From contig NZ_BMOC01000007.1 of the NCBI RefSeq assembly GCF_014646875.1, positions 62,001 to 126,000 on the forward strand: a stretch of DNA of 64,000 nt, read 5' to 3'. Position 1 is the first letter of the stretch; the number at the start of each line of letters is the position of its first letter. Below are positions 20,019 through 44,523 of the stretch, piece by piece. Source of the stretch: Halobellus salinus (lineage in GTDB: Archaea; Halobacteriota; Halobacteria; Halobacteriales; Haloferacaceae). Under the pieces are notes generated by a model. That model was not told the origin of the DNA. It was given only the letters and a program-made list of their open reading frames with translations, and searched no databases. The position numbers and the translations under genes are program-made.

Positions 20019-20539
20019 ACCCCCGAGGCCCGGGTCGGTCACCTGAACGACGCGCTGCACGAGGTCTTTCCCGCGGGCGTCGGCCGTCCGGGCGAGCGTG
20101 ATGTTCGGCGTACATTGCCTCGGGGGTGTCGCCCTCGAACACTGGCGCTTCGAGTTCGCGCTCAACGGCTCCGTTGCGTCGGGTTGTTTCGGCACGGACC
20201 CCTGCGAACACCGGTCCAGACCACGCTGCTGTCCTCCAGAGCGGGGAAAACGCCGACCCCGCCCACGCGCATCCCCAAGGGATCCACGCCGGCGTCGTCG
20301 GCTGCGCGTTCCAAGGCTGATCCGTTCCCGTCGATCCGATCAGGGTCGACCTCCCCGATAACAAAGAGGGTACGGTGAGCGGTGTCGGGGTCGACGAACC
20401 GCAACCCGTCGGGGTCGACGAACCGCAGCCCGTCGGGGTCGACGAACCGCAGCCCGTCGGCGTCGGCAAAGCGGTCCTGCGCGTCCGCGACAGCGTCGAC
20501 GAGGTGGTCAGGGAGGTCGATGCTGACGAAGACTCGCAC
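20019..20539 (-). pseudogene. thpR: decayed RNA 2',3'-cyclic phosphodiesterase
   Basis: Homology to ThpR/LigT starts at GTG 20539 (MRVFVSIDLPDHLVDAVADA) and runs to GVFPALEDSSVVWTGVRRG, continues in a second frame as RRNGAVERELEAPVFEGD, then in a third as TPNITLARTADARGKDLV and QRVVQVTDPGLG near 20019. At least two frameshifts are needed. Of the two catalytic HxTx motifs, the first reads HRTL and the second NITL, so the second histidine is lost. The 3' end is missing. An 8-residue DGLRFVDP repeat (three copies) interrupts the first motif region. An 80-bp palindrome sits 11 bp upstream of the start. Intact enzyme would process tRNA-type 2',3'-cyclic ends. Confidence 0.82.
20384..20455 (-). repeat. 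3 x 24-bp tandem repeat inside the thpR pseudogene
   Basis: Three in-frame 24-bp units, encoding DGLRFVDP on the minus strand, differ by one base in unit 1. Intact homologues have this segment once, so it is a duplication. Confidence 0.8.
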
Positions 20540-27567: not shown

Positions 27568-27978
27568 GTGACATCCGTGCCTCCCGACTCACACCCGACC
27601 GGCGACGAACCCTGCCTGGTCATCGACTCGCTGGAACAGATCGGCTCCCAGTGGCGGCTGATTGTGCTCCACGATCTCCAGGGGGGCGAAAAGCGGTTCA
27701 ACGAGCTCAGACGCTCCACCGACGCCAGTTCCCGGACGCTCTCGCGGGTGCTTGACGACCTCCAAGAGTTGGGGTTCGTGAACCGCCGGCTCGAGGAGGA
27801 CGCGCCGGTCGCGACGTTCTACTCGCTGACCCCCAAGGGGCGCTCGCTGTGCCCGGTGTTCGACGAGATCGAGGCGTGGGCCGACCAGTGGCTCCACGCC
27901 ACGCCGACCGGCGAGGACCCGGCGGCCGTCGCGGCGGACGGCGGGGACTCCGAGGCGGGGTCCGAACCGGCCGAGTGA
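27568..27978 (+). CDS. HxlR-family winged-helix transcriptional regulator
   Basis: A 136-residue regulator from GTG 27568 (GTG 27577 is possible). CLVIDSLEQIGSQWRLIVLHDLQGGEKRFNELRRS is the HxlR N-terminal motif with the conserved Cys (about residue 15), then TDASSRTLSRVLDDLQELGFVNRR (recognition helix and wing) and YSLTPKGRSL. HxlR proteins often sense quinones or aldehydes through that cysteine. It is divergent from the MhqD-like esterase and probably controls it or itself. The acidic C-terminal tail is halophilic padding. Confidence 0.88.
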   Translation: MTSVPPDSHPTGDEPCLVIDSLEQIGSQWRLIVLHDLQGGEKRFNELRRSTDASSRTLSRVLDDLQELGFVNRRLEEDAPVATFYSLTPKGRSLCPVFDEIEAWADQWLHATPTGEDPAAVAADGGDSEAGSEPAE

Positions 27979-28126
27979 GTCGATCCAAAGCGGCATACAC
28001 GCTGCCGCTCGGCTTCGGGATTCCGACGAGCGACACGTAGCGAGCGGACCGCGTCGCCACCGACGCCTCCGAGTTACCGGGGCCCGTTCCGGACGTATCA
28101 TTTTTATGTTAATTGTCTGACGGTGA

Positions 28127-28149
28127 TTTATAGTTCTGCCCCGCAGAAC
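28127..28149 (+). promoter_or_regulatory. TATA box and overlapping inverted repeat before the coiled-coil gene
   Basis: ATTTATAG at 28126-28133 is centred about 27 bases before ATG 28157. Directly after it, GTTCTGC-CCC-GCAGAAC (28133-28149) is a perfect 7-bp inverted repeat with a 3-base spacer, in the region where transcription starts. It could be an operator or a 5' hairpin. Confidence 0.55.
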
Positions 28150-28156
28150 GGAGTGT

Positions 28157-28732
28157 ATGAGCAGTAAGACCCCCGATTCGAACTCCGACGCCGAACAGGA
28201 TCAGTCCGCCGACGCCGAACAGGATCAGTCCGCCGACGCCGAACAGGATCAGTCCGCCGACGCCGAACAGGATCAGTCCGCCGACGCCGAACAGGATCAG
28301 TCCGCCGACGAGACCCCGGAGGCGAACCCGCTCCAGATCGCGCTGCCGGACGGGAGCGCGAGCGTCTCCGACGCGATCGTCACACACAGGGAGATGCTGC
28401 GCGCCCCGCAGGAACACGGACTGGCGACCGAGCAGGACGTCACCCACCTCTCTGAGGCGATCGAGTCGCTCTCCGCGAACATCTCTGAGACCAACCAGGA
28501 ACACGACGAGAGCCGGTCACAGATCGACAAGCTTCAGGACGTTGTGGAACAACAGCGCGGGCAGATTGACGAGCTTCAGGACGTTGTGGAACAACAGCGC
28601 GGGCAGATCGACGACCTCCAGAGCGTCGTAGAACGACAGCACGGACAGATCGACGAACTTCAGTCGATGGTCTCTTCGCTCGCGGGCATTCTTGGAACCG
28701 AGACGGAGTGGGACACCTTCGACGAGGAGTAG
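28157..28732 (+). CDS. repeat-rich acidic coiled-coil protein
   Basis: A 191-residue protein of unrecognised family. Residues 11-50 are five identical DAEQDQSA units. A central part (about 57-115, LQIALPDGSASVSDAIVTHREML...) is non-repetitive. Residues 116-170 contain 14-residue repeats based on LQDVVEQQRGQIDE, two heptads each, which should form a long parallel coiled coil. The tail is acidic (WDTFDEE). Similar halophile proteins are sometimes labelled bZIP-like from the coiled coil alone; there is no basic DNA-binding stretch here, so I do not support that. No signal peptide or TM. Monocistronic with its own leaderless promoter and operator-like repeat. Confidence 0.85.
   Translation: MSSKTPDSNSDAEQDQSADAEQDQSADAEQDQSADAEQDQSADAEQDQSADETPEANPLQIALPDGSASVSDAIVTHREMLRAPQEHGLATEQDVTHLSEAIESLSANISETNQEHDESRSQIDKLQDVVEQQRGQIDELQDVVEQQRGQIDDLQSVVERQHGQIDELQSMVSSLAGILGTETEWDTFDEE
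28187..28306 (+). repeat. 5 x 24-bp perfect tandem repeat (VNTR)
   Basis: Five identical 24-bp units encoding DAEQDQSA, in frame inside the coiled-coil gene. Lack of any silent difference points to recent expansion or ongoing gene conversion. Confidence 0.95.
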
Positions 28733-44199: not shown

Positions 44200-44236
44200 C
44201 CCCGCCCCTCCGGGGGCGACGACGGAGGGACGGCCG

Positions 44237-44326
44237 GTCGTGAACGGTGGGTGTCGGCCACCCCAGGTCGTGAACGGTGGGTGTCGGCCACCCCAGGTCG
44301 TGAACGGTGAGTGTCGGCCACCCCAG
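44237..44326. repeat. 3 x 30-bp tandem repeat upstream of the ABC ATPase gene
   Basis: Three head-to-tail 30-bp units, starting GTCGTGAACGGTG and ending GGCCACCCCAG, with one change in unit 3. Located in the 324-bp gap (44200-44523) between the divergent ABC ATPase and MFS genes, just upstream of the ATPase start. Nothing else is seen in the gap except an AT-rich spot near 44367-44383 (TATGATTCATCATCGTT). Confidence 0.92.
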
Positions 44327-44523
44327 GTTCGGTTCCGCGCTCGCGTCGACCCGTCATTGAGACACCTATGATTCATCATCGTTATGAACCCTGGGATCGA
44401 ACCGTCGGTCGATATGTCGGCCGAGCGACCGCGTTCCGGTCACCCGCCGGGCCTCACCTCTCGCGTTCCAGTCGTCGACCGCGACCCCGCGGGACCGGGG
44501 TGTGACGCCGGGCGCCGACGGGG

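Follow-up and report, generated by a model that had tools for sequence, protein, structure and literature searches.

A repeat-built protein and its family

In the 64-kb stretch of DNA analyzed here (the window, taken from a 3.07-Mb assembly, G000, whose relatives are haloarchaea), one short gene carries two tandem arrays, and these have the two top scores among the eight TRF rows of the window (Table 1). The initial annotation had described five identical 24-bp units encoding DAEQDQSA, and these were recovered both by TRF (5.2 copies, 100% match) and by copy-by-copy comparison, in which units 1–5 are identical and the next unit has diverged. It had also described 42-bp units encoding 14-residue coiled-coil repeats, and this was likewise borne out by TRF (3.4 copies, 86% match) and by the position of the array inside a predicted helix. 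Copies 1 and 2 of this second array differ at 2 of 42 bases, and copies 3 and 4 are more diverged. Among the other TRF rows are a 24-bp array of 3.4 copies (96% match) at 20384–20465 and a 30-bp array of 3.1 copies (98% match) at 44236–44328. The latter falls early in a long ABC transporter ATPase frame, whose actual start codon may be 3' of the array.

Table 1. Coordinates of the gene, its repeats and its promoter elements in the window.
Feature	Position	Strand	Remarks
Weak upstream TRTC element (GTATC)	28095..28099	+	Lies some 18 bp 5' of the TGTC in the box
Element TGTCTGACGGTGATTTAT: GTC-T-GAC box directly 5' of BRE/TATA	28114..28131	+	27/29 family-holding genomes
TATA element TTTATA, 25–30 nt before ATG	28127..28132	+	TTTAT conserved in the family
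Palindrome GTTCTGC-CCC-GCAGAAC	28133..28149	+	Not conserved in relatives
CDS	28157..28732	+	191 aa; transcript predicted to be leaderless
24-bp tandem array encoding five DAEQDQSA units (flexible acidic tail)	28185..28310	+	TRF; low pLDDT, residues 1–60
Conserved base block PLQIALPDGSASVSDAIVTHREML	28328..28405	+	Family alignment
42-bp tandem array encoding the rod's 14-residue units (two heptads each)	28520..28663	+	TRF; inside predicted helix 92–179
Conserved end block SLAGILGTETEW	28676..28711	+	Family alignment

An AlphaFold2 model built with 12 sequences (mean pLDDT 75.9, pTM 0.41) consists of a tail modeled with low confidence, a short base that is helical, and a single helix over residues 92–179, with pLDDT above 90 in every 10-residue block from 91 to 180. 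The coiled coil proposed by the initial annotation thus agrees with structure prediction, and the helix, if straight, would by arithmetic be about 13 nm long. A long helix with heptads is predicted for the window protein, and length changes in the family keep the register, with the exception of the 64-residue form described below. The most fitting reading of the protein is a coiled-coil rod whose length varies, with an acidic tail that is disordered. Its long single helix with heptads is reminiscent of coiled-coil-rich cytoskeletal proteins, but the window protein has no match in the PDB by Foldseek and no model at cut-off in Pfam or NCBIfam. The models of these two libraries for SMC, Rad50, eukaryotic coiled-coil proteins, and others fell below cut-off and were set aside as coiled-coil composition; four weak PHROGs matches, all of unknown function, were also set aside, and the plasmid collection held no relative. 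The small haloarchaeal proteins of DUF7518 (PF24362) share with the window protein a small coiled coil, an acidic tail, and a common promoter box, but their conserved sequence is unlike its own, and PF24362 was absent among the best 25 of 43 families listed (E values up to 1), all of which were below cut-off. The earlier statement that no motif decides the role of the protein therefore holds for the domain libraries searched, but two conserved blocks and the shared promoter box do give a lead.

Of 170 same-family genomes searched by profile, 23 contain strong relatives (E ≤ 6.8e-38), and nine others gave weak coiled-coil-type matches only. A scan of named genomes yielded 12 loci, including Halosimplex, Natronobiforma, and Halobellus clavatus, as well as metagenome-assembled genomes (MAGs) assigned to Haloquadratum, Haloplanus, and Salinirussus. 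After six duplicates between the two sets were merged, the protein family totals 29 distinct genomes. Alignments consist of a variable tail, a block PLxIxLPDGSxSVSxAI..HR.ML, the coiled coil, and a SLAxILGT end, with both blocks conserved across genera. Among 28 members from 26 distinct genomes, the tail is 35–39 residues long in 17 and 44–84 in 11, the window protein having 63; one relative (L044) carries a different repeat of its own in the acidic tail, of the DDVADGAETDDAADGAEI type. Of 27 members measured from the first block to SLA, 22 have a rod of 82–83 residues; that of the nearest relative (G008) has 96 and that of the window protein 110. Within this lineage, rods of 82, 96, and 110 residues are steps of 14, so the heptad register is kept; shorter rods of 75 and 64 residues also exist, the latter a non-integral number of heptads away. 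The rapid turnover predicted from the identical units is visible between species, with one genome compared per species: the nearest relative has one DAEQDxSA unit versus five, along with its shorter rod. Expansion of the acidic tail appears to have taken place separately in different lineages. In one genus (g18), the gene has a fixed neighborhood, with a neighbor protein that we take to be CetZ/tubulin-like. At the window locus, no other gene was common to two or more of the other loci, save antisense frames of the gene itself.

A conserved promoter box in place of the palindrome

The initial annotation drew attention to an inverted repeat, GTTCTGC-CCC-GCAGAAC, as an operator-like element overlapping the transcription start. 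The TATA-to-start spacing usual in haloarchaea puts the start at or beside the ATG of the gene, given the positions of TTTATA and the start codon. The palindrome exists, between these two, but spans roughly −24 to −8, short of the predicted start itself. Its part as a dedicated operator was not supported. The proposed search for further copies gave none anywhere in the assembly (3.07 Mb), whether matches had to be exact or could contain one mismatch, and among 28 family promoter spacers (26 distinct genomes) the palindrome was found only in that of the window gene. Inverted repeats with 7-bp arms and a 0–6-bp gap number 91 in the window, or 1.4 per kb. In one relative (G002), a palindrome of other sequence, also with 7-bp arms, occupies this position, and two such spacers of 28, versus 0.10 expected from shuffles, leave a small doubt over rejecting the element; on comparison of the sequences, it is probably not the conserved operator. 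This small excess, together with an HxlR-type gene upstream on the same strand (27577–27978; HxlR model 75.3 bits), would favor a local regulator such as the HxlR-type protein acting on the palindrome. We consider this unlikely, given a palindrome that is single-copy, absent from relatives, and of a kind so common in the window, and an HxlR gene that is not a neighbor common to two or more of the other loci compared. For lack of a shared neighborhood, the HxlR-type protein was rejected as the regulator.

Dedicated control as such was a sound suggestion, but it appears to run through an element immediately upstream that the initial annotation had missed. The common element of the family promoters is TGTCTGACG-N4-TTTAT, and its form at the window gene, TGTCTGACGGTGATTTAT, is the sole match in the window at up to two mismatches (0.08 expected). 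GTCTGA lies 37–43 nt before the start codon in 27 of the 29 genomes with the protein family, and of 27 distinct promoters, 22 share a box-to-ATG distance of 42 nt; the promoter list comprises 28 members from 27 distinct genomes and omits G011 and G013, both without the box. This fixed distance suggests a leaderless transcript. Further upstream, the TRTC element has a T at −19 worth 1.5 bits in the 27 distinct family promoters and is a possible second half-site. No description of the box was found in the full-text literature, a scope outside which preprints and most subscription papers fall. The conserved element replaces a misleading palindrome.

Other genes with the box

To place the window gene among other genes, the box can be followed across related genomes. 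The exact pattern TGTCTGAC-N5-TTTAT occurs in 147 of 167 of these, versus 6 of 167 for a reversed-pattern control. At least 144 such sites exist, and a start codon (ATG or GTG, with at least 35 codons) lies 40–47 nt downstream of 122 of the 144 sites listed, the other 22 being without one. By simple sequence signatures, the genes at these 144 sites include 55 of DUF7518, 31 of ParA type, 18 for small SPYV proteins, 7 of HalOD1, and 5 of the window protein family. Two DUF7518 proteins, one HalOD1 protein, and one ParA-type protein with the box were checked with models; the SPYV proteins have no Pfam match. One HalOD1 box protein passes the DdfA model (72.7 versus 70 bits). With DdfA, the HalOD1 disk-determining factor (PMC10869688), there is one likeness, in that some HalOD1 genes have the same box, and one difference, in that its fold is unrelated to that of the window protein. 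Several different ParA-type families (L134, L136, L212, L226, and others) have the same box 43–46 nt before the start, and some of the box-bearing genes of this type are on small contigs. It is as if partition-type genes use a host signal through the box. The box also occurs in viral contigs, in at least 120 stretches.

Within the window's own genome, the pattern GTCTGAC-N(3-7)-TWTA occurs seven times, versus four for its reversed control. Four of the seven sites have an ATG 42–43 nt downstream and belong to the window gene, a DUF7518 gene, a ribbon-helix-helix (RHH) gene, and a 57-aa SPYV-type gene. At a fifth, the frame opened by a GTG at 43 nt is 366 aa long and hits the Bactofilin model at 41.8 bits (cut-off 27.9); the other two have no clear gene. 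The Bactofilin-matching frame (L207; G000:C17 near 54597) follows GTCTGAC-N6-TTTA, and its tail contains a 30-bp tandem array of its own (5.3 copies, 97% match), making it a second repeat-tailed protein in the predicted set.

The assignment of the RHH gene relies on sequence reading and on a weak hit to the CdrS model (20 of 100 bits). In all five of its close orthologs, GTCTGAC precedes the ATG by 43 nt. A box in its own promoter suggests autoregulation. Close orthologs occur in 5 of the 8 window-family genomes examined and in 0 of the 16 examined that lack the family, a comparison that ignores kinship; 15 of the 24 have no match, and four have only distant ones. Many genomes without a close ortholog do have the box, so a more widespread factor than this one would be needed.

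The known haloarchaeal factor CdrS, itself an RHH protein, was compared through its targets. In PMC8406309, ChIP sites of CdrS in Haloferax volcanii are given at −47 for dacZ and −50 for ftsZ1, counted from the transcription start; the distances that follow are counted from the ATG. For dacZ, 12 starts were located, and 9 of them have GTCWGAC in the 90 nt upstream (background 0.035). The box lies at −48 in each of the five from genus g9 and between −61 and −89 in the remaining ones; of 13 loci, L147 is negative, and L145, with its start not located, was left out. The ftsZ1 gene of the own genome (FtsZ model, 432 bits; probably FtsZ1, since the copy beside cdrS is a different one) has two copies of GTCAGAC, at −66 and −55. 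The cdrL genes were recognized by their place upstream of cdrS and a zinc-ribbon sequence. Of their 13 promoters, 9 carry GTCAGAC between −48 and −50, and 11 carry GTCnGAC no more than 80 nt upstream; the background rate of GTCWGAC is 0.046 per 80 nt. For comparison, a crude test over 1.26 Mb of the own genome put 7 of 89 GTCWGAC sites 40–67 nt before a plausible gene, a weak enrichment and the second-highest rate among 24 like palindromes. An Orc1/Cdc6-type gene (L436; G000:C1 near 391111) has GTCAGAC 63 nt before its ATG.

The agreement of the dacZ and ftsZ1 boxes with the published sites makes CdrS the leading candidate for the factor that reads the box. The likeness to its regulon lies in targets, at near the reported distances, and not in motif letters; the motif is reported as symmetric (PMC8406309). 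There are also differences. In the own genome, another CdrS target listed in PMC8406309, psmB, lacks any GTCnGAC within 150 nt, and the 18 published sites, as given there, do not name DUF7518, ParA, or the window family. The cdrS promoters themselves (L161–L173) have three to five boxes of the form GTCTTAC/GTAAGAC at fixed places in all 13 cases, and in none of the 13 is there a GTCWGAC within 260 nt. These boxes are likely CdrL sites and fit the binding of CdrL reported in PMC7439475, where it is confined to the region upstream of cdrS-ftsZ2. They are one base away from GTCTGAC/GTCAGAC, but the window gene has the GTCTGAC form. From promoter sequence, we infer that the window gene is under the control of an RHH regulator of the CdrS kind.

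A rod gene under a proposed RHH-read box

Taken as a whole, the observations are best explained by a coiled-coil rod gene with a GTC-W-GAC box read by an RHH protein and a role in division, partition, or shape, to which we assign a probability of roughly 45%. The gene would stand alone and code for a small haloarchaeal coiled-coil rod protein. An RHH regulator, either CdrS itself or an RHH paralog with the box in its own promoter, would bind the GTC-W-GAC pseudo-palindrome and switch the leaderless transcript; the place of the box just upstream of the BRE suits an activator. The protein may oligomerize through its rod, and its two conserved blocks may bind partners at a spacing set by the number of 14-residue units, in the service of division, partition, or cell shape. 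The 24-bp repeats would lengthen the flexible tail and turn over by slippage.

A somewhat less probable explanation, though one to be taken seriously, is that the box is read by another factor that serves ParA-type, HalOD1, and small coiled-coil genes and not division proper. The likeness at ftsZ1, dacZ, and cdrL would then reflect an RHH-type preference or chance. The orientation and spacing of the boxes at these three genes indeed differ from those of TGTCTGAC-N5-TTTAT, the psmB result is negative, and no division gene with the full pattern is among the 144 sites listed. However, GTCWGAC recurs at a fixed place before cdrL, and the uniform position before dacZ in genus g9 stands against a background of at most 0.05 per interval. 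That the box is instead only a strong generic promoter variant (an extended BRE/TATA), with the protein a fast-drifting accessory that has no set role, would suit the restriction of true family members to 23 of 170 genomes and the quick drift of the repeats. Yet one to a few copies per genome, repeatedly before the same target families, is not what a generic promoter would show, and the two blocks of the protein are conserved across genera; we regard this explanation as improbable.

The rod gene under an RHH-read box may also belong to something broader, which we put forward tentatively. A GTC-W-GAC box 5' of the BRE/TATA, read by RHH proteins throughout the haloarchaea, might join the division genes ftsZ1 and cdrL and the c-di-AMP synthesis gene dacZ with partition-type ATPases, HalOD1 shape regulators, a bactofilin-like protein, and several unnamed small coiled coils. 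The length of the window rod would change by two heptads at a time, and mobile ParA genes would use the box to draw on a cell-cycle signal of the host. The window gene is a member of a promoter set whose other members point to partition, shape, and perhaps division, a set undescribed as far as our literature searches reach. If the box is a CdrS-type site, DUF7518, the SPYV peptide, and the window family would become candidate parts of archaeal division, partition, or shape. The box thereby turns an uncharacterized set of haloarchaeal genes into a testable one.
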